NCBI GenBank assembly: GCA_020725025.1
Contig: DYFV01000024.1
Location: 1 to 64,000 of the forward strand
DNA length: 64,000 nucleotides
Origin: Azoarcus sp.
GTDB lineage: Bacteria; Pseudomonadota; Gammaproteobacteria; Burkholderiales; Rhodocyclaceae
Direction: 5' to 3'
This document shows positions 191 through 10,015 of this stretch, piece after piece (positions within the stretch are counted from its first letter, which is position 1; the number at the start of each line of letters is the position of its first letter). Under the pieces are notes generated by a model. The model saw only the letters and a list, made by a program, of their open reading frames with translations, had not been told where the DNA came from and made no database searches. The translations under genes were made by a program, and so were the position numbers.

Positions 191-922
191 GTGATCTATC
201 CGATCGGAGGATCGCACGCGACGTGTTGGCGCATCGGGACGACGGCGCTCGTGGCCCTCAGCGTCATCGCCTCGGCAGTAGGGACGTTCGGCGAGCCGTC
301 ATACCGCGGGCTCGCTTCCGGGGAGTTCCAGGAATTCCCGTGGTTCGTGACGACCATGGCGATCGGGTGGGCCGGGGCGCTCGTTTGGGGAGTTCGCGCA
401 CTCGTGGGGTCGGCTGCTCGATGGTCGCGCGGCGTTTTCGTGGTCGCCTTCGTCGCTGTCTTGATTGGGGTATTGTTGCCCGGTGAAGCGAAGGTGTCGT
501 TGGAGGCTTGGGTGCTTGATCTGGTTGGCCCGAGGGATTACTTCGGCGGCTCGGTGTCGCCGAGTACGATCGCGCACGGACTGATGTTCGGGATATTGGC
601 GGCAGTGCTCGCCTTGGCGCGTATGGATCTTCGGGGCGGGGGGCTGGTGTTGGACCTCGCGCTGCTGGCGATCGCGACGGAGGTGCTGCAGCTCTTCGTG
701 GCAGGGCGCGAGGCGAGTCTGGTGGATGCCGGAGTGGATATGGTGGGGGTGGTCGTTGGTGTTGGTTTGGTGCGGGGGGCAGTGACGGTCGTTCGCATGG
801 CGACGAACCCGTCCCCCTCCTGTCCGGGAGTCTCCGCTTCGCTCCGCCGTTCGGCAGGCTGCGAGCAGGCTCGCCGAAACTCCTCCCTCACCCCCCTTGA
901 AGGGGGAGGGGCCTGCTCATGA
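191..922 (+). CDS. VanZ-family membrane protein
   Basis: The 243-residue protein starts at GTG after an AGGGG ribosome-binding sequence. Hydrophobic segments lie near residues 15-32, 50-72, 82-98, 125-145, 150-170 and 180-200. The VanZ signature is visible as AHGLMFGILA (about 128-137) and EVLQLFVAGREASLVD (164-179). VanZ-like proteins are inner-membrane proteins of mostly unknown role, and in Betaproteobacteria they often sit in exopolysaccharide loci, which fits the rml remnant before it and the Yjb/Wza locus nearby. The last 35 or so residues, after VVRMATNPSPS, are encoded by a dispersed intergenic repeat and are probably not part of the fold, so the original stop may have been lost. Function is inferred from the family only. 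Confidence 0.75.
   Translation: MIYPIGGSHATCWRIGTTALVALSVIASAVGTFGEPSYRGLASGEFQEFPWFVTTMAIGWAGALVWGVRALVGSAARWSRGVFVVAFVAVLIGVLLPGEAKVSLEAWVLDLVGPRDYFGGSVSPSTIAHGLMFGILAAVLALARMDLRGGGLVLDLALLAIATEVLQLFVAGREASLVDAGVDMVGVVVGVGLVRGAVTVVRMATNPSPSCPGVSASLRRSAGCEQARRNSSLTPLEGGGACS
825..866 (+). repeat. dispersed 42-bp repeat, copy 1
   Basis: This stretch matches 27616-27657 at 39 of 42 positions (core CTCCGCTTCGCTCCG). Here it lies inside the 3' end of the VanZ reading frame, and it is followed by a C-rich/G-rich inverted segment (CCCCTTGAAGGGG) at about 893-907. The other copy lies between tetR and glnD, outside any gene, so this is an intergenic element that the VanZ frame has run into. Confidence 0.7.
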
Positions 923-974: not shown

Positions 975-1529
975 ATGAATGACCAATTGGCTTCCACTAC
1001 CTTGCGCACCACCGCCGTGGCGTTCGTGCTTGCGTTGAGCTCGGCGACCGGCTTTGCTTCCGACGATCGCTTCGATACGGCAAGCGATGTGCTCGCAGCC
1101 GGACTGCCGCTGGTCGCGGCGGGGATTTCCTATGCCCAGGATGATCGCGCAGGTTTGTACCAGCTCGCCAAGTCCGAGGCGGCGACGGTGGCCTTTACCG
1201 AGCTGCTGAAGCATTCGACGCAGAAGACCCGCCCCAACGGGCGGGACGACAAGAGCTTCCCCTCCGGCCATACCGCGGTCGCGTTCGCTGCGGCTCAGTA
1301 CATGCAGACGAGAGTAGGTTGGGAGGCTGGCGTTCCGGCCTACGTGGCGGCGTCCCTCGTGGGCTACAGTCGCGTACGCGCCGATCAGCATTATTGGCGG
1401 GACGTGGTGGTCGGCGCTGCGCTCGGGATCGGATCTAGTATGTATTTCACCGAGCCGAGGGAAAAAAGCCGGTTCAGCGTCCTGGCTGCGCCTGGCGCGG
1501 CCTATGTGCACTACTTTGCGGCGTGGTGA
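975..1529 (+). CDS. PAP2-superfamily lipid phosphatase
   Basis: The 184-residue protein has all three motifs of the acid-phosphatase/PAP2 family: K79 with RP at 85-86, PSGH at 96-99, and SR at 132-133 followed by His139 and Asp143. ATG at 975 was chosen over the upstream GTG because it starts a clean signal sequence (hydrophobic core about residues 13-27), so the enzyme should act at the periplasmic face. Likely substrates are phosphatidic acid, undecaprenyl diphosphate or a lipid A phosphate; the sequence does not decide. The next gene is dgkA, 33 bp downstream, which makes the phosphorylated lipids that such an enzyme hydrolyses, so the two may form a lipid-recycling pair. Confidence 0.85.
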   Translation: MNDQLASTTLRTTAVAFVLALSSATGFASDDRFDTASDVLAAGLPLVAAGISYAQDDRAGLYQLAKSEAATVAFTELLKHSTQKTRPNGRDDKSFPSGHTAVAFAAAQYMQTRVGWEAGVPAYVAASLVGYSRVRADQHYWRDVVVGAALGIGSSMYFTEPREKSRFSVLAAPGAAYVHYFAAW

Positions 1530-1562
1530 AGGTTCGGAGCCGCTGCGCCTTGTCCGTTTGAA

Positions 1563-1934
1563 ATGTCCCTGTCCTCTTACCTGCGCGCTCGCAAGAACGG
1601 CTTCCGTTATGCCGCCAACGGCGTTCGTGTCGTGCTTGCGACCCAGGCCCATGCCCGGATTCATCTCCTCGCGGCGGTCGGCGTCGTGCTGCTCGCGTGG
1701 GGTCTGGACGTGTCGGCGGTGGAGTGGTGCATCCTGCTGCTGGCCATCGGCATGGTGTGGACCGGGGAGGCGGTCAACACCGCGATCGAGCTCACCATCG
1801 ATCTCGCGTCGCCCGACTACCATCCATTGGCGGGGAAGGCCAAGGATGTCGCGGCGGGGGCGGTGCTTCTGGCCTCGTGCCTCGCGGCGGTGATCGGGGC
1901 GATCGTGTTCGTTCCGAAGCTGGTCGCTTTGTAG
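1563..1934 (+). CDS. dgkA: diacylglycerol kinase
   Basis: The 123-residue protein has the length and three transmembrane helices of prokaryotic DgkA. The family block is intact: GEAVNTAIE at about 68-76, followed by the Asp, His and K-AKD residues (DLASPDYHPLAGKAKDVAAGA, residues 80-100) that form the active site. The enzyme phosphorylates diacylglycerol in the inner membrane to return it to phosphatidic acid, mainly after headgroup transfer to periplasmic glucans or lipopolysaccharide. It follows the PAP2 gene on the same strand and is probably cotranscribed with it. A REP-like repeat lies directly downstream. Confidence 0.93.
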   Translation: MSLSSYLRARKNGFRYAANGVRVVLATQAHARIHLLAAVGVVLLAWGLDVSAVEWCILLLAIGMVWTGEAVNTAIELTIDLASPDYHPLAGKAKDVAAGAVLLASCLAAVIGAIVFVPKLVAL

Positions 1935-2000: not shown

Positions 2001-4097
2001 TCAGTCCTTGATTCGGCCGAAGTTCTGGTGGAAGAAGTCGACGTTGCGGCCTTCGGTCAGGTCGAAGAGGCGCCAGTCGCGGGCCAGGCGGGCGCCGCCG
2101 TCGCGGGTGAGGGGGGCGATGGCGATGTTCGCGCGGCGCAGCGTGGAGCGGGTGGCCATCTCGTCGAAGGGGATGGAGATGTAGAAGCCCTTGTCGAAGC
2201 TGCCTTCGCCGTACTCTTCCTTCGAGACGTTCGTCAGGGTGGCCCAGGCGCCGAAGCGCACGCCGTTGGTGAACTCCCGGGCGAGGTCCAGTGTTACGCC
2301 GTAGTCGCCGGCGAGGTAGCGGCCGGCGCTGGCGGTGACGAGCACGTTCGGGATGCCGCGGTAGTAGCCGCTGACGTGGCCGGTGAGCACGTCGTAGTCC
2401 CGTAGCCCGAAGCCGACGTCGAAGTCGCGTTGCTTGACCCAGTTGAGGTCCAGGCCGATCGCCCATGGCTCGTTGAGCGGGCGGTAGAGCAGCTCGCCGC
2501 CCACGCCGGCGAACATGACCTCCATGTAGCCGCCATAGACGATTCCGTAGAGACCTTCCCCGAGCCGGCGAGCGTGGTTCAGCTGCAGCAGCGGCAGGGT
2601 GACGTCCGAGGAGGTCCAGTACTCGCGCAGGAAGGTGCGCACGCGCGGGAGGCGGCTCGGCGCGGTGTAGCGGAACTTGTCGAAGTTGTTGTGGAGGTTG
2701 CCGCTGATGGTGCCGGCGAGCCAGGTGCCGGGCTCGAATTGGTACTCGGCGTTCAGGTTGGCGCTGAACTGGTAGAGGATGAAGCTGTCCGGGCCGCCGA
2801 GGTTCTGACGGTAGCCGACGCTGGCGCCGTAGGTGAGCCGGTCCTGGTCTTCGGGTTCGTAAAGCGTGGTCTCCTGGCGGGGGCGCGGCTCGACCTGCTC
2901 GGTGCTCCGCCGCAGCGTGTCGAGCGGGACGTCGTCCTGGAGCGCCTTGCGGAAGGTGTCGCGCTTCACGCTGGTTTCGGTAAGCGGCAAGCCGTCGCGC
3001 GACTCCGAAACGGTGAGCCAGTCGACCTCGGGGCCGGCGGCGTTGTCCAGCACGCGGGCACCGCGGCCGACGCCTACGGGGGCGTGGAAGAAGCGGGTCT
3101 GTTCGCCGTAGACGACCACCTCCCGCTCGCGCTGGGCGATACGCTGCACGCGGTAGCCGGCGCTGTCCTCGATCCGTTTCGCCACGTCGGCCCAATCGGG
3201 CGAGCCGGCCGGGCGTGCGGCGTCCGGACGGACCGCTTCGGGCGCCGGATCGGAGACCTTCGGGGGCGAGGGCGTGCGGCCGCCGACGTCGGTTTGCATC
3301 GTCAGCGCCAGCATCGCGGTGTTGCCGCGCTCCCAGCCCGCGTGGAGCGTCAGCCAGCTGTTGAGACGATAGGTCGCGCCGAGATTGAGGGGAGAGTCCT
3401 GCTTGACGCCCGGGCCACCGAACTCGTTGCGGTAATCGTTGCCGTCGTACTCGAGCTTCAGCTGCAGCGGCGCCCAGGGCGTCTGCCACTGTACGCCGCC
3501 GAAGAGGGCCACCGGGCCCCGAAAATAACTGTCTAGGTCGATATCGCCGACGGCAGCGTTGTCGACGGCGGGGCGCCTTCTGAACCTGTCGTCTAGCCAG
3601 CCCAGCGGGTTGTCGAAATGCGCCTGTTTGCCGAGATACCCCCAGCCGAGGCCGAGACTGAAATCGAAGTCTTCCCAGCGCTTGTTCGCGACGATGTACT
3701 CGCTGGCGAAGAGGCCGGTGCCGCCGATGTCGCGCGCGCCGACCGCGATCTCGGGCAGCCAGCGGCTTTCCTCCCAGAGACGCAGCTTGAGGTCGAAGGA
3801 CTTGTCCTTGTAGCTCTGGTCACCGCTGAGCGCCTCGGCTCCGTATAGCCGGCTGCTGACGGAGGTGTAGCGGTAGATGGCCTCGAGCCAGTCGAAGGGC
3901 TGGACGATGACGGCATAGCGCCCGTACGGCGCGACGCGGCTCAGGTTGAGGCCGAAGCTGCCCGCCGGCGCCATGCGCGCGGTCGGGGTCTGCAGGAGAC
4001 CGATTCCGCCGAAGTCGCCCTGGGTGGGCTCGGTCGCCGCCAGGCTCAGCTCGGCGCACGCGGCGCAGACCGCGAGTACGATCACGCGACGCTTCAT
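2001..4097 (-). CDS. yjbH: YjbH-family exopolysaccharide outer-membrane protein
   Basis: The 698-residue protein begins with a signal peptide (MKRRVIVLAVCAACAELSLAA). Right after it comes the YjbH/DUF940 opening GGIGLLQTPTARMAPAG, then long alternating segments rich in aromatic residues and glycine that suggest an outer-membrane beta-barrel. In E. coli, YjbH is the last protein of the yjbEFGH exopolysaccharide operon and is thought to act at the outer membrane. The start ATG at 4097 overlaps the 3' end of the yjbG-like gene by 4 bp, so the genes are translationally coupled. A proline-rich linker near residues 260-290 separates two barrel-like halves. The polysaccharide it handles is unknown. 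Confidence 0.85.
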   Translation of the reverse strand: MKRRVIVLAVCAACAELSLAATEPTQGDFGGIGLLQTPTARMAPAGSFGLNLSRVAPYGRYAVIVQPFDWLEAIYRYTSVSSRLYGAEALSGDQSYKDKSFDLKLRLWEESRWLPEIAVGARDIGGTGLFASEYIVANKRWEDFDFSLGLGWGYLGKQAHFDNPLGWLDDRFRRRPAVDNAAVGDIDLDSYFRGPVALFGGVQWQTPWAPLQLKLEYDGNDYRNEFGGPGVKQDSPLNLGATYRLNSWLTLHAGWERGNTAMLALTMQTDVGGRTPSPPKVSDPAPEAVRPDAARPAGSPDWADVAKRIEDSAGYRVQRIAQREREVVVYGEQTRFFHAPVGVGRGARVLDNAAGPEVDWLTVSESRDGLPLTETSVKRDTFRKALQDDVPLDTLRRSTEQVEPRPRQETTLYEPEDQDRLTYGASVGYRQNLGGPDSFILYQFSANLNAEYQFEPGTWLAGTISGNLHNNFDKFRYTAPSRLPRVRTFLREYWTSSDVTLPLLQLNHARRLGEGLYGIVYGGYMEVMFAGVGGELLYRPLNEPWAIGLDLNWVKQRDFDVGFGLRDYDVLTGHVSGYYRGIPNVLVTASAGRYLAGDYGVTLDLAREFTNGVRFGAWATLTNVSKEEYGEGSFDKGFYISIPFDEMATRSTLRRANIAIAPLTRDGGARLARDWRLFDLTEGRNVDFFHQNFGRIKD

Positions 4098-4945
4098 CGC
4101 GTGCTGCCCTCCGCCGGTAGCGGCTGCGTCGCGATGAAGGCCGCCAGATCGGCGTTGAGCGCCTCGGTCGCGTTTCCGGGGACGTCCCGGAGCGGGACAA
4201 GGATCCGCGCGCCGGGAGCCAGCGGCTGCGGCGCGGTTCGGTTCCATGCCGCATTGCCATGCCGGGAGACGGCGCCGTCCGGCTGGATGACGTAGATCCA
4301 GTCGGGATCCGCGTCGCCGTGCGGCGCGCATTCCTGCGCATAGTCGGCGGCCGGCTTGAGGCCCACGAAGGGCAGGGTGCAGTCTTCGGCGACCGCGCCC
4401 AGCACCGCGATGGTGTCGGGGCGGGAGGGGTAATACAGCTGATCGCCGGCGTGGATCGGGCGATTGTGCTTCAGCTCGAGCTCCAGGCGCACCGGATCGA
4501 GGTTGCCGGTCAGGCGGCCGGTCACCGGCAGGGCCTCGACCCGCTGTCGCAGTCGGTCACCGAGCGCCGCGCGGTCCCGGTGACCGACGAGGTGGGCGTG
4601 CCGGACCAGTACGGTGAGCTCGTGGATGAGCCCGACCTTCAGGCCGCGCTGGGTCGCCTCGGCCGGACGGTGAAACCAGGCGGCGCCGGTGAGGAAGGCG
4701 TCCGGGCGCACGCCTGCGGCCTGCGCCGCATCGAAGAGGCGCGAGCCGGGGGCGAGCTCGTGACGGCCGGGGTTGTGCACCATCCCGGTGACCCGAACCG
4801 GTATGGCGGCGGTCGGCGTGGCGACGGCTTCGGCGGCGAGCGCGGAGCCGTCGAGCATCAGCATGACGGTGATCGCAAGGGCAAGGTCGCCAATGCGCGG
4901 CCCGAATCGGAGGGCGAGTCTCAACGCTGCCCCTCCGGCCGCCAT
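4094..4945 (-). CDS. yjbG: YjbG/GfcC-like capsule biosynthesis protein
   Basis: The 283-residue exported protein has a hydrophobic N-terminal segment ending around SALAAEA. It then has two SLBB-like stretches: VRVTGMVHNPGRHELAPGSR near residues 50-69, and PVTGRLTGNLDPVRLELELK in the middle. This matches the GfcC/YjbG family, periplasmic partners in group 4 capsule and Yjb polysaccharide secretion. ATG at 4945 overlaps the yjbF-like gene by 25 bp. A shorter start cannot be excluded, but it would lose part of the signal peptide. It belongs to the minus-strand operon wza-yjbF-yjbG-yjbH. Confidence 0.8.
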   Translation of the reverse strand: MAAGGAALRLALRFGPRIGDLALAITVMLMLDGSALAAEAVATPTAAIPVRVTGMVHNPGRHELAPGSRLFDAAQAAGVRPDAFLTGAAWFHRPAEATQRGLKVGLIHELTVLVRHAHLVGHRDRAALGDRLRQRVEALPVTGRLTGNLDPVRLELELKHNRPIHAGDQLYYPSRPDTIAVLGAVAEDCTLPFVGLKPAADYAQECAPHGDADPDWIYVIQPDGAVSRHGNAAWNRTAPQPLAPGARILVPLRDVPGNATEALNADLAAFIATQPLPAEGSTR

Positions 4946-5598
4946 GGGCGAAGGGCCGTGAGCACGAGGCGCAAGCTCGGGGTGACCTGCTGCTCGCTCT
5001 TGAGCACGGTGCCGTCCGACGGGTCGACCCAATAGTGATTGAGCGCCTCGAAGTCGGCGGAGGGCGAGGCGAGATGCTCGTCTACGCGCAGGAGATCGAA
5101 GCCTTCGCCCAGGATCTCGACCCGTTCCCGCCCCTTCGGTTCGAAACGGCCGTGGAGGGGGGCGCCGAACCGGTATCCGGGCATCCAGTCGGCCGTCCGC
5201 TCGACGGGCGTACCTGTCGCGACACGATGCAGGCCGGCCGCGAACGGGTCCGCACCCTCCACGCGCGTGCCCTCCAGCGTTTCGGGGAAGCCGATGATCC
5301 GGCGTACGAGTCCATTCTCGATCACCACCACGTGGCCGGTGGAGGCGACCCAGAACTGCTGCCCGTCGGTGACCCGTGCGAGCACGAGCACGGCCGAGCC
5401 GAGGGCGCTGTCGAGCCGAAGCTGATAGTACGGGCGCGAGAACACGGCCTCGCGGGTCACTTCGATCGGCGGTGGGCCGCGGAAGGCGACGATCGCGGTG
5501 TCGCGCGCCGCCTGCATGGCGGGCGTGCACCCCGCCGAGCCGAGCGCTGCCGCGAGAAGCACGATTGCCGTGACGATGCCGGACGGCATGAGGCGCAT
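4921..5598 (-). CDS. yjbF: YjbF-family lipoprotein
   Basis: The 225-residue protein starts with a short hydrophobic signal and a lipobox (LGSAGC, Cys at residue 24), so it should be an acylated outer-membrane lipoprotein. The body matches the YjbF/GfcB family: an early AIVAFRGPPPIEVTRE segment, a YQLRLDSALGSAVLVLAR strand, and the C-terminal HYWVDPSDGTVLKSEQQVTP motif. In the related gfc and yjb operons this lipoprotein takes part in polysaccharide export, with no known enzymatic activity. The start is 5 bp after the stop of the wza-like gene. Confidence 0.82.
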   Translation of the reverse strand: MRLMPSGIVTAIVLLAAALGSAGCTPAMQAARDTAIVAFRGPPPIEVTREAVFSRPYYQLRLDSALGSAVLVLARVTDGQQFWVASTGHVVVIENGLVRRIIGFPETLEGTRVEGADPFAAGLHRVATGTPVERTADWMPGYRFGAPLHGRFEPKGRERVEILGEGFDLLRVDEHLASPSADFEALNHYWVDPSDGTVLKSEQQVTPSLRLVLTALRPWRPEGQR

Positions 5599-5603
5599 CC
5601 CGG

Positions 5604-6707
5604 TCAGCGGGTACGAAGATCGGCTTCGAGGTCGGTGCCGGTCCGCAGCAGAGAACCCGTCGGGATCAGCTGGGTGATGACGCGGTTCCAGCGGGTGATG
5701 TCGGCCGGGCCGACGAACACCACGTCGCGCGGCATCACTTCGAACTGGGAGGCGAGGGCGAAGGCGACCGGCGACTTCGCTTCGAGCTGGAACACCCGCA
5801 CCGGGCGCTGCTCGACATCGTCGATGCCGCGGATCACATAGACCGCGTTGCCGTCCGACGTTTCCTGGCGCATGCCGCCGGCGTTGCCGAGCGCTTCGGT
5901 AAGGCTGATGCTGCGCGCCTTGAAGGTGATCGTGGTCGGGCGCAGGACTTCGCCCATCACGTAGGCCTTCCTGCGGTCGTTGTAGGGCAGGTGGATGTGG
6001 TCGCCGTGCTTCAGGTAGACCGCGTCGAGATTCGACCTGCCACGGTTGAGGGCGTCGAGATCGAGCCGGAACTCGCGTCCGTCGCGCTTCAGCGTCAGGC
6101 CGGTGAGATCGGCCTCGGCGGTCTTGATGCCGGCGGCGCCGAGGGCGGCGAGCAGGGTCAGGGGTGTCTGCGTGATCGGCTGTTCCGCCGCCTTCTCGAA
6201 GGCGCCCGAGAACTGCACCTTGGCGCTGTTGTAGCGGATGACGGCGACGTCTACCTGCGGCTGCTCGAGCCACTTGGTGAGACGGCTGGTGAGCGTCGCG
6301 CGGAGTTCGGCGAGGGTGGCGCCGCCGGCTTTCACGGAGCCTGCGTAGGGGAAGAACAGCGTTCCGTCCGCGTGCACGATGCGTCCGTTTGCCTCGGGCT
6401 GCTGCTGCTGGCCGGAGGGAACCGTCAGTTCGGGGTGCTCCCACACGGTGACGTGAAGGATGTCGCCGGCGCCGATGCGATATGGGCCGGGCTGGAATGC
6501 GAGCAATTCGTCGGGGATCTGTTCGGCGCTGCGTTCGGCCGACTGGACCGCGAGAAGCTTGGGCGTGATGGAGACGAGCTCGACCATGCTGCTTTCGGCG
6601 TCGTTCTTGTCAAGCAGGGCGCTGCGGTCGAGGTGCTGTCCCGGGGCGAGCATGCAGCCCGAAACGGTGGTGAGAAGTGCGAGCGCGACGGGAACGAGGG
6701 TTTTCAT
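5604..6707 (-). CDS. wza: Wza-type polysaccharide export lipoprotein
   Basis: The 367-residue protein has a lipoprotein signal (TTVSGC, Cys at 18), then the Poly_export domain starting at PYRIGAGDILHVTVWEHPEL near residue 75. Two SLBB repeats follow (VQFSGAFEKAAEQPI and AYVMGEVLRPTTI). The family forms octameric outer-membrane channels for capsule or exopolysaccharide. The C-terminal part resembles the amphipathic helix region of Wza, though I cannot prove a pore from sequence. It is the first gene of the wza-yjbF-yjbG-yjbH run and lies downstream of a terminator-like hairpin, so its expression may differ from that of the YjbE-like peptide. Confidence 0.88.
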   Translation of the reverse strand: MKTLVPVALALLTTVSGCMLAPGQHLDRSALLDKNDAESSMVELVSITPKLLAVQSAERSAEQIPDELLAFQPGPYRIGAGDILHVTVWEHPELTVPSGQQQQPEANGRIVHADGTLFFPYAGSVKAGGATLAELRATLTSRLTKWLEQPQVDVAVIRYNSAKVQFSGAFEKAAEQPITQTPLTLLAALGAAGIKTAEADLTGLTLKRDGREFRLDLDALNRGRSNLDAVYLKHGDHIHLPYNDRRKAYVMGEVLRPTTITFKARSISLTEALGNAGGMRQETSDGNAVYVIRGIDDVEQRPVRVFQLEAKSPVAFALASQFEVMPRDVVFVGPADITRWNRVITQLIPTGSLLRTGTDLEADLRTR

Positions 6708-6742
6708 GCAGCGATGACGATCGAGTTGGCGACGAAGGCGCG

Positions 6743-6776
6743 AAAAAATACCCGCAGCCGGTGGCCGCGGGTATTT
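6743..6776 (-). terminator. intrinsic terminator or attenuator between the YjbE-like gene and wza
   Basis: Read on the minus strand, an AAATACCCGC arm, a short GC-rich loop region and a GCGGGTATTT arm are followed directly by a run of Ts. The stem is about 13 bp and the T-run lies only on the minus-strand side. It sits 18 bp after the YjbE-like stop and 36 bp before the wza start, so it would end or thin out transcription entering wza. Confidence 0.8.
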
Positions 6777-6793
6777 CCGGGAAACGACAGAAA

Positions 6794-7093
6794 TCAGGGC
6801 GTCGTGCCGGTGGTCCCGGTCGTTCCGGTGGTGCCGGTGGAGCCGCTGCCGCTGCCGCCGCCGTCCGAGGTCGCGGCCGCGATGCCGCCGACCACGGCCA
6901 CGCCGAGGGCAACGGTGCCGCCGACGCCGAGGGTGGAGACGATCCCGCCCGTCTTGGCGGCGGTTACGCTACCGGTGGTGGCGGCGGTGGTTCCGCCGCC
7001 GTTCGCCGGGGGCGGGGTGTTGGTGCCGCTCTGGGCCAGCACCGGGGATGAAGCGAACAGCGCGGCGAGCGCAAGGCTGACGACTGCTTTCAT
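6794..7093 (-). CDS. yjbE: YjbE-like small exported Gly/Thr-rich protein
   Basis: The 99-residue protein has a signal peptide (MKAVVSLALAALFASSPVLA). The rest is low-complexity Thr/Gly/Ala sequence with a hydrophobic glycine-rich segment (STLGVGGTVALGVAVVGGIA) and a C-terminal run of GTT repeats. E. coli YjbE has the same plan, and its gene is also first in the yjbEFGH operon, which supports the name despite little residue identity. ATG at 7093 was preferred because it begins the signal peptide and has AGGAG upstream. A strong hairpin terminator follows it. It may be an abundant structural component of the extracellular matrix; this is inference. Confidence 0.65.
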   Translation of the reverse strand: MKAVVSLALAALFASSPVLAQSGTNTPPPANGGGTTAATTGSVTAAKTGGIVSTLGVGGTVALGVAVVGGIAAATSDGGGSGSGSTGTTGTTGTTGTTP

Positions 7094-7140
7094 GGATCGA
7101 GGGCTCCTGTATGTACGTTGTCGCACGGATGATTGTAAAG

Positions 7141-7178
7141 GAATACGGTAGGCGTGTTGTTGACAGATTTCCGTATTC
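7141..7178. repeat. inverted repeat in the yjbE-like upstream region
   Basis: GAATACGG and CCGTATTC form 8-bp perfect arms separated by 22 bp, between the BY-kinase stop and the yjbE-like start. A minus-strand TACAAT that could serve as a -10 element lies just downstream of it. An operator for a dimeric regulator of the exopolysaccharide genes is possible. Confidence 0.4.
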
Positions 7179-7203
7179 GATAAGCAGATGTGTATAAGTA
7201 CCG

Positions 7204-9429
7204 CTACTTCTCGGACTTGTACTCGTACTGGTAGTAGCTGTACCCGCCGTACTTCCCGTAGACCGAGGCGCGCTTCTCCATGCCGTTGAAGATGGCGCCC
7301 TTGATCTCGATGCCGTTCTGCGCGAACCGGCGCACCGTGAGCTCCACCTCCTTGGCGGGATTCACGCCGAACCGGGTCACGATCAGGCTCGTGCCGGCCA
7401 GCCGGCCGACGATCGCGGCATCGGTGACGGCGAGCAGTGGCGGCGTGTCCACGATCACCAGGTCGAAGGCCGCGCTCGCCTGCTCCAGGAAAGCGCCGAA
7501 ATTGGGGTGCATCAGCAGCTCGGAGGGGTTGGGCGGGATCTTGCCGCGGGCGATCACGCTCAGGCCCGGGATGCGCGTTTCGCGCACCGCCTGCTCGAAA
7601 GTCACATCGCGCGCCAGGAGATTCGAAAGACCGCCCTCGGGTTCGATTTCGAAGAAGCGGTGCAGATGCCCCTTGCGCAGGTCCGCGTCCACCAGCAGCA
7701 CGCGCTGCCCCGCCTGGGCGATGATCGCGGCAAGGTTGGAGGACACGAAGGATTTGCCCACACCGGGGCTGGGGCCGGAGATCATGATCCGGTTGTTGCT
7801 CGCCTCCAGCATGGCGAAGTGCAGGCTGGTACGAAGGCTGCGCAGGGCTTCGACGGCGAGGTCGTGGGGATGGGCGACCGAGAGCAGGGCGCTCGCGCCC
7901 GATTTGCGTCCGCCCGCCTTCTGCAGGATGGTTTCGAAGGTGCGCTGCTGCTCGCTGAGGGGCACGGTGGCGTACACCGGCAGGCCGAGCTTCTCGATCT
8001 CTTCCGGCGATTCGACGCCCCGGTTCAGCGCACGCCGGACCAGCACGAAGGCCGAGGCAAGCAGGCCGCCGAGCAGGGTCGCGATGGCGACGATCAAGGC
8101 CTTCTTCGGGGCTACGGGGTGGCGGGTGTCGACGGCGGCGGTGTCGATGATGCGCGCGTTGCCGACGGTGCCGGCCCGCACGACGTCGAGCTCCTGCGCC
8201 TTGTTCAGGAGCTGGGTGTAGATCTGGGTGCCGACCTCCACGTCGCGGGACAGCCGCAGGACCTCCTGCTGGGTCTCGGGCAGGTTGCGGATGCTGCCGG
8301 ACAGCTCCCGCTGCTGGCGGGTGAGCTCGTCGATCTGGCGCAGCAGGGCCTGGTAGGTGGGGTGCTGGCGGGTGAACTTGCGGTCGAATTCCGCCTGCTG
8401 GAACTTGAGCTCGGTGAGCTTCGTCTCGATCGCCACCGACTTGTCGAGAACGGCCTGGGTCTCCAGGCTTACGTCGATCGACTGGGCTCGGCGCTGGAAG
8501 TCGTTGAGCGCGGCCTCGGCCCTTTCGAGCTGGGTGCGGACCTCGGGCAGCTGCGACCGCAGGAACTCCAGGCTGTTTGCCGCTTCCGCCGACATGCGCT
8601 CGACGTTCTGGCGGACGAACTGCTGGGCGATCTCGTCGAGGATGTGCGAGATCTTGTCGGGAACCGGCCCCTCGAGGCCGAGGCTGAGGATGCCCGAATC
8701 CTTGCCCCGCTCGCCGACCGCGAGCAATTCCTGATATTCGACGATGGTGTCGAGCCGCTTCTTGCGCATCAGGTCGAAACGGGTGCCGGGCCGCGCGTGA
8801 AGCTCGCGTACCTGGATGCGCACGCCGTTGCTCGCGACGTCACTCCCCACTTGCCCCTGGAGGATCAGGTTGTCCTCGTCGTCGAACAGGGTGAAAGACC
8901 CGGCTTCACCGGCGACCAGCGTGAGCTCGACGTCGAGGAGGTGTTCGGGAACCTGGAGCTCGCGGAGATCGATGCGCTCTCCGCCCCAGGCGTAATCGTC
9001 CAGGCCGAACAGGGGTTCGGCGAGCTGATCCGGGCTGTCCGGGCTGAAGCGCCGTGCGACGGCTTTTCCGAGCGCCGGCAGATGACGGGGCTCGGCTTGC
9101 AGGTCCAGCCGGAGCCGGTCGACCGCCTTGCCCACGACGTTGCGCGACTTGATGAGCTCGATCTCGGTCACCGCCTTGGATTCGGTGCCCAGGGCCTCGG
9201 AGATCTCCGACAGCCCCAGCATGCCGGAGCTCTTCTTCTCGATCTGGATCAGCGCGTTGGCACGATAGACGGGCTCGGCGAGCAGGCTGTAGGCGACGCT
9301 GCCGGCCATGAAGAGGGCGGTAACGCCCCCGATCAGCCATTTGTGATCGAGCAGGGTCCCGACGAGCGCGAGCAGATCGATTTCGTCATCGTCGTTATTG
9401 TCTTGTGAGGCGACTTGGTTCGTTTGCAT
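7204..9429 (-). CDS. wzc: Wzc-type bacterial tyrosine kinase / chain-length determinant
   Basis: The 741-residue inner-membrane protein has the standard BY-kinase plan. Transmembrane helices lie at about 31-50 and 443-463 and flank a periplasmic Wzz/GNVR region with coiled coils (about 280-400). The cytoplasmic kinase has Walker A GPSPGVGKS (552-560), Walker A' LLVDADLRKG (578-587), Walker B VIVDTPPL (658-665) and a C-terminal tyrosine cluster (seven Tyr between 724 and 737) for autophosphorylation. Such proteins control polymerisation and export with a Wza channel. The cognate phosphatase gene lies directly upstream and the Wza-type gene downstream on the same strand, so this is the regulatory core of the exopolysaccharide locus. 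Confidence 0.93.
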   Translation of the reverse strand: MQTNQVASQDNNDDDEIDLLALVGTLLDHKWLIGGVTALFMAGSVAYSLLAEPVYRANALIQIEKKSSGMLGLSEISEALGTESKAVTEIELIKSRNVVGKAVDRLRLDLQAEPRHLPALGKAVARRFSPDSPDQLAEPLFGLDDYAWGGERIDLRELQVPEHLLDVELTLVAGEAGSFTLFDDEDNLILQGQVGSDVASNGVRIQVRELHARPGTRFDLMRKKRLDTIVEYQELLAVGERGKDSGILSLGLEGPVPDKISHILDEIAQQFVRQNVERMSAEAANSLEFLRSQLPEVRTQLERAEAALNDFQRRAQSIDVSLETQAVLDKSVAIETKLTELKFQQAEFDRKFTRQHPTYQALLRQIDELTRQQRELSGSIRNLPETQQEVLRLSRDVEVGTQIYTQLLNKAQELDVVRAGTVGNARIIDTAAVDTRHPVAPKKALIVAIATLLGGLLASAFVLVRRALNRGVESPEEIEKLGLPVYATVPLSEQQRTFETILQKAGGRKSGASALLSVAHPHDLAVEALRSLRTSLHFAMLEASNNRIMISGPSPGVGKSFVSSNLAAIIAQAGQRVLLVDADLRKGHLHRFFEIEPEGGLSNLLARDVTFEQAVRETRIPGLSVIARGKIPPNPSELLMHPNFGAFLEQASAAFDLVIVDTPPLLAVTDAAIVGRLAGTSLIVTRFGVNPAKEVELTVRRFAQNGIEIKGAIFNGMEKRASVYGKYGGYSYYQYEYKSEK

Positions 9430-9577
9430 TCGTTGTCAGGAGCTTTCGGTTTGCAGGGCTCGAACGGGGTTTCCCGTCTTCGTCGCCAGGACTGGCGCTG
9501 CAGGTTCGGTTGGCCGCGGTCCGCAGCTTAAACAGGTCGCGTTGCCGGCGCCTTGTCACATGGTGAATTCGTGTCGC

Positions 9578-10015
9578 TCAGCGAATGCGCGTGGCCCATG
9601 CCGCCACGCCCTCGCCGATGTAATCGTAGGCGGCCGCAAAGGCCGCGTCGTCCTTGCGGTACGGATCGGGTACTTCCCGTTCGCCCTGCCACTTGCCGAG
9701 CAGGAACACCTTTCCGCGCGCCTCGGGTGCCATGCGCTGGATGTGCTCGATGTGCGGCCGCTCCATCACGAGTACCAGGTCGGCCTCGCGCAACATCTCG
9801 CGGGTGAGTTGCCGGGCACGATGCTCGTGCGGCTGGTGCCCGCGGGCACGGAGGATCTCCTCCGCCTGTGGGTCGATCGGCTTGTCGACCAGCGCACCGA
9901 TACCGGCAGACGAAACGACGACGCCTCGATCGGAGAGTGCTTCGCGGAGGAGATTCTCGGCGGTCGGGCTACGGCAGATGTTGCCGATGCAGACGACGAG
10001 GATGTTCTTGAACAC
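9578..10015 (-). CDS. wzb: low molecular weight protein-tyrosine phosphatase (Wzb type)
   Basis: The 145-residue protein carries the P-loop CIGNICRS at residues 9-16, starting at the catalytic Cys, and the DPYRKD motif with the general acid Asp near residue 117. GTG at 10015 was chosen because it places the first strand (FKNILVVCIG) at the usual distance from the N-terminus; the longer frame adds 25 residues with no family match. In exopolysaccharide loci these enzymes dephosphorylate the BY-kinase, and that gene follows 148 bp downstream on the same strand. Confidence 0.9.
   Translation of the reverse strand: MFKNILVVCIGNICRSPTAENLLREALSDRGVVVSSAGIGALVDKPIDPQAEEILRARGHQPHEHRARQLTREMLREADLVLVMERPHIEHIQRMAPEARGKVFLLGKWQGEREVPDPYRKDDAAFAAAYDYIGEGVAAWATRIR

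Follow-up and report, generated by a model that had tools for sequence, protein, structure and literature searches.

The genes yjbEFGH of Escherichia coli stand apart from wza-wzb-wzc, and a locus in which homologues of both sets lie side by side raises the question of whether two export systems have been joined there or whether a known system is present in an altered form. Such a locus occurs in the window, i.e. the whole 64,000-nucleotide stretch of Azoarcus sp. DNA analysed here, where seven genes, all on the minus strand, occupy positions 2001-10015 in the order wzb, wzc, yjbE-like gene, wza, yjbF, yjbG and yjbH. The initial annotation regarded this combination as an unusual hybrid by comparison with E. 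coli. It was right about the separation of yjbEFGH from wza-wzb-wzc but overlooked a third locus that joins both: of the three loci of E. coli K-12 that matter here, yjbEFGH, wza-wzb-wzc and gfcABCDE-etp-etk, the last, known as the group 4 capsule operon (PMC8592465, PMC11494523), holds both sets on one strand and encodes the same seven-protein set in a single operon. Because gfcABCDE-etp-etk unites paralogues of yjbEFGH and wza-wzb-wzc, the hybrid claim fails, and a comparison of gene order also speaks against it, the same set being found in Rhodocyclus purpureus and in one other genome of the family.

The local arrangement is an ordinary relative of gfc with a changed gene order, not a new hybrid, and the operon is very probably an export module of the group 4 capsule type (gfc-like), serving a capsule or exopolysaccharide made by the Wzy-dependent route. 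Modules of this kind are widespread, and no function has yet been defined for their four gfcABCD-type proteins; GfcD/YjbH-like genes have been counted beside many export-protein (wza-type) genes (PMC9603273).

Gene content and organization of the locus

The features of the locus are the following:

9578-10015, minus strand: wzb/etp-like low-molecular-weight tyrosine phosphatase, 145 aa, GTG start (Pfam LMWPc, 2.6e-38)
7204-9429, minus strand: wzc/etk-like BY-kinase and polysaccharide co-polymerase, 741 aa (Pfam Wzz, WZC_N, GNVR and AAA_31)
6794-7093, minus strand: yjbE/gfcA-like small secreted Thr/Gly-rich protein, 99 aa (architecture and position)
6744-6778, minus strand: intrinsic-terminator-like hairpin and U-run between the yjbE-like gene and wza (spacer folding)
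5604-6707, minus strand: wza/gfcE-like outer-membrane polysaccharide export lipoprotein, 367 aa (Pfam Poly_export, SLBB_2, Wza_C 6.2e-8)
4921-5598, minus strand: yjbF/gfcB-like lipoprotein (Pfam YjbF, 5.8e-35; GfcB structure 2IN5, E=1.8e-6)
4094-4945, minus strand: yjbG/gfcC-like periplasmic protein, overlapping yjbF (Pfam GfcC N and C domains, ~1e-8; 3P42)
2001-4097, minus strand: yjbH/gfcD-like predicted outer-membrane double beta-barrel, 698 aa, overlapping yjbG by 4 bases (Pfam YjbH, 2.5e-247)

Six of the seven proteins exceed the curated Pfam cut-offs, including YjbF, YjbH and both the N and C domains of GfcC; the yjbE-like ORF is the exception. The placement of all seven ORFs in the initial annotation is borne out, and so are its functional assignments, six through Pfam and the yjbE-like one, more tentatively, through architecture and position. 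Its remark that glycosyltransferase and polymerase genes are missing also holds: the ORFs called in the window, a subset of which was profile-searched, include no recognisable gene of either kind. In BLASTP comparisons the six proteins are 24-50% identical to their E. coli gfc and yjb or wza-wzb-wzc paralogues.

The phosphatase carries the C-I-G-N-I-C-R signature (CX5R) and a DPYRK loop, and is 50% identical to E. coli Wzb and 46% to Etp (BLASTP). The kinase has the Walker A motif GPSPGVGKS and seven tyrosines within its final 20 residues; its identity to both Wzc and Etk of E. coli is 43-44% (BLASTP), and solved Wzc structures align with it along nearly its whole length in a sequence search. 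Among NCBIfam families the two proteins score best with PRK10126 (Wzb) and PRK11519 (Wzc), respectively, both below the strict equivalog cut-offs. Wza is 38-40% identical to E. coli Wza and GfcE (BLASTP) and matches the solved Wza structure 2J58; because the C-terminal Wza_C segment is present, it is a Class 1 OPX protein in the scheme in which the export-protein (OPX) classes were defined (PMC9603273). YjbG matches the solved GfcC structure 3P42 (E=5.4e-12, sequence search).

YjbH is 44% identical to E. coli YjbH and 42% to GfcD (BLASTP). An AlphaFold2 model built on 25 sequences, of moderate confidence (mean pLDDT 72.5, pTM 0.72), predicts 12 strands in residues 47-270, then an alpha/beta domain at about 300-413, then another 13 strands in 421-660. 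These predicted 12 + 13 strands around a middle domain resemble the arrangement described for GfcD, whose second barrel has been proposed to contain a lateral gate for lipid-anchored chains (PMC11494523). A fold search of the model against solved structures returned general beta-barrels alone, with low TM-scores and no good match.

The seven genes share one strand, with two overlaps (yjbF/yjbG and yjbG/yjbH), but also with two long gaps, of 148 and 110 bases, separating wzb, wzc and the yjbE-like gene, and with one hairpin. A standard promoter/terminator scan found no promoter, and the same scan also missed the yjbE-wza hairpin; JUMPstart/ops-like sites gave no signal (19 one-mismatch matches against 14 expected). 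The terminator and the gaps allow for separate transcription units.

Genes for a PAP2 phosphatase and a diacylglycerol kinase, both lipid-phosphate enzymes, lie on the plus strand at window positions 975-1934, convergent with yjbH, and are possibly relevant to carrier-lipid recycling. A VanZ-like gene (191-922, plus strand; E=7.3e-06, under the Pfam cut-off) is also near the operon, and in 19 of 80 related loci such a gene immediately follows yjbH.

Gene order and distribution among relatives

Gene order was counted in the 80 closest named loci, which are mostly from Pseudomonas. The order wza-yjbF-yjbG-yjbH is present in all 80, and an ORF equivalent to the yjbE-like gene lies just upstream of wza in 78. 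The mobile part is the wzb-wzc pair, which is undetected within the fetched flanks in 72 of the 80 and divergent in 4; otherwise it is downstream in Rhodocyclus, and in a few loci a kinase gene is upstream of the exporter. Homologues of sugar-nucleotide, glycosyltransferase or initiating-transferase genes occur within about 10 kb in 76 of the 80 loci, a generous count, as NAD-dependent epimerases in general are picked up by the rmlB query too.

Within the family YjbH has a scattered distribution, occurring in 12 of 151 sampled genomes and in none of three congeners. The closest YjbH is that of Rhodocyclus purpureus, followed by those of Pseudomonas and then of Xanthomonadales; in the tree the window and Rhodocyclus proteins form a supported pair beside a gamma-proteobacterial group, apart from most family members. 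Horizontal transfer or differential loss would fit this distribution and tree. The cysQ gene neighbouring the operon is 78-79% identical to cysQ of congeners; it is present in two of them, where no empty insertion site was readable because the surroundings are not syntenic.

The yjbE-like gene and the hairpin that follows it

The yjbE-like ORF combines a signal peptide, small size, a hydrophobic segment, a Gly turn and a Thr/Gly tail TGTTGTTGTT. No Pfam or NCBIfam family exceeds its cut-off, BLASTP against E. coli YjbE and GfcA gave no meaningful match, and the ORF is assigned as the YjbE/GfcA counterpart by architecture and position alone. The Thr/Gly tail is common to YjbE-like proteins, with at least 6 Thr among the last 20 residues in 77 of 78, although the choice of the relatives' ORFs relied partly on richness in small residues and on a nearby wza.

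The hairpin has a stem of 16 bp, and the 66-nt stretch containing it folds at -26.3 kcal/mol (z -3.12). Of 78 related loci, 74 have a terminator-like hairpin in the yjbE-wza spacer. The corresponding control frequencies are 9 of 78 for the reverse strand, 7 of 70 for other co-directional spacers of comparable length and 10.8% for shuffled spacers. The 78 loci are related and so are not independent cases; their stem-loops are of 46 distinct kinds, and among 26 spacers from Pseudomonas both sides have changed in 8 of the 11 consensus pairs. No description of a conserved terminator after a yjbE/gfcA-type gene was found in the literature searched, and the conserved hairpin may be a new observation. 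Rho-dependent termination has been studied in the gfcA region of E. coli (PMC9160355); with an intrinsic hairpin here and a Rho zone there, termination downstream of the first small gene may therefore be common to such loci and achieved by different means. In two related loci a NusG/RfaH-like gene lies beside the kinase gene upstream of the exporter (L081, 428-1003, confirmed by Pfam; L083, 401-1021, by similarity), and RfaH-type antitermination could act on the hairpin there.

The position of the terminator after the yjbE-like gene suggests that more of this small, secreted, Thr/Gly-rich protein is produced than of the exporter. GfcA has been speculated to be a possible O-antigen carrier (Larson et al., PMC8592465). 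A stronger version appears unlikely: the YjbE/GfcA-like protein, with its Thr/Gly-repeat tail, would be no minor accessory but would be produced in abundance specifically to work with the polymer, as its protein anchor, as an acceptor or as part of the matrix, and the conserved terminator would set its excess over the export machinery. The conserved hairpin offers a simple way to probe the role of YjbE, the least understood of the gfcABCD-type proteins.

The polymer genes and the contig edge

The contig (C38) begins at window position 1. Within positions 1-94 rmlA ends and rmlC begins, and contig C100 has this sequence again at its end. The rmlC reading frame does not continue, the assembly breaking there, and since no rmlA exceeds the family cut-off in the whole assembly, the assembly probably lacks a stretch with rml genes. 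This missing stretch to the left of the window is a possible place for the polymer genes, as the initial annotation suggested; in the assembly itself no polymer cluster adjoins the operon.

The genome has two other OPX loci, each with kinase-like homologues of its own, and no unpaired Wzx/Wzy cluster was found in it: Wzx matches occur only on contigs C117 and C137, and Wzy_C matches only on C117 and C43. C117 and C137 were rejected as polymer clusters for the operon, each having its own OPX genes; by eye, C43 resembles an LPS core/ligase locus. On C117 there is a separate large EPS cluster (L037-L038), to which, from ORFs inspected by eye, belong OPX, chain-length and kinase-like genes and what is likely an exosortase.

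A proposed mechanism and its alternatives

Phosphorylation cycling between Wzc and Wzb and the Wza-Wzc channel are established from work in E. coli. By analogy, Wzc would control polymerisation and form with Wza an envelope-spanning conduit, Wzb would reset the phosphorylation of Wzc, and Wza would open the outer membrane. The lipoprotein YjbF and YjbG would be a periplasmic pair docking on YjbH, as in the GfcB-GfcC-GfcD complex of E. coli (PMC8592465), and the YjbH double beta-barrel may serve as a second, accessory portal for export or anchoring, perhaps for lipid-linked chains. YjbE would be secreted, probably in excess, with a terminator following its gene. We infer that the seven genes act as one machine in the source organism. 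What counts against a gfc-type module is the different gene order, the terminator and gaps that would permit separate transcription, the lack of an adjoining polymer cluster, a YjbE without profile support and the moderate confidence of a YjbH model that no solved structure matches well.

If the operon exported the O-antigen of the cell it would be a true group 4 (O-antigen) capsule locus; its position apart from any polymer cluster, like that of E. coli gfc, agrees with this, and the rml sequence found where the contig ends is consistent with an O-antigen locus. We nevertheless consider it rather doubtful, as in the relatives the module lies beside its own sugar genes, as a dedicated polymer would predict, and here the left flank is absent from the assembly. 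Less probable still is that wzb-wzc serves another polymer and lies by chance beside an independent yjbE-wza-yjbFGH exporter. This agrees with the pair being undetected near 72 of the 80 loci, divergent in 4 and elsewhere in others, with the gaps of 148 and 110 bases between wzb, wzc and yjbE and with the two further OPX-gene loci; against it, the pair is on the same strand as the exporter and directly adjacent to it, both other OPX loci have their own kinase-like homologues, and the pair adjoins the exporter also in Rhodocyclus, in the genome G134, in Frateuria and in Dyella. A Yjb-type locus, operating like E. coli yjbEFGH without its own Wza, Wzb and Wzc, is extremely improbable: YjbF, YjbG and YjbH are roughly equally similar to the yjb and gfc paralogues, but both here and in 80 of the 80 nearest loci wza is internal to the unit, with yjbE on one side and yjbF on the other.

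Comparison with known systems

Seen as a gfc-like module, the locus can be placed among several known arrangements. E. coli yjbEFGH has homologous genes, with a stem-loop between yjbE and yjbF, but lacks wza, wzb and wzc, whereas here wza is internal and wzb-wzc adjacent, so that the locus is not of the yjbEFGH type. Nor does it belong to the colanic acid/group 1 type: the E. coli wza-wzb-wzc locus encodes homologous Wza, Wzb and Wzc (38-50% identity), but yjb genes are absent there and polymer genes follow directly.

The Pseudomonas yjbE-wza-yjbFGH loci share the core order, the YjbE tail and the hairpin, but their kinase pair is usually undetected within 10 kb and polymer genes flank the module. 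The wcaJ-wzb cluster of P. fluorescens SBW25 yields a real capsule (PMC4357382), a comparison that concerns capsule production alone and not module content. The Rhodocyclus purpureus locus (L026/L056) has the same protein set and the nearest YjbH (65%), but its wzb-wzc pair is downstream of yjbH and is followed by Glycos_transf_4 (WecA-like) and manC-like genes.

The closest counterpart in E. coli is gfcABCDE-etp-etk, which likewise encodes the seven proteins on one strand, the yjbE-like protein being the putative GfcA counterpart, with B-C and C-D overlaps, a Class 1 Wza, a BY-kinase and a phosphatase; here too the BY-kinase and low-molecular-weight phosphatase genes adjoin the gfc-type genes. 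The order here is etp-etk-A-E-B-C-D with equal content and 25-46% identity to the gfc/etp/etk proteins, and a strong intrinsic hairpin follows the A gene where E. coli gfcA is reported to be a Rho-dependent terminator zone (PMC9160355).
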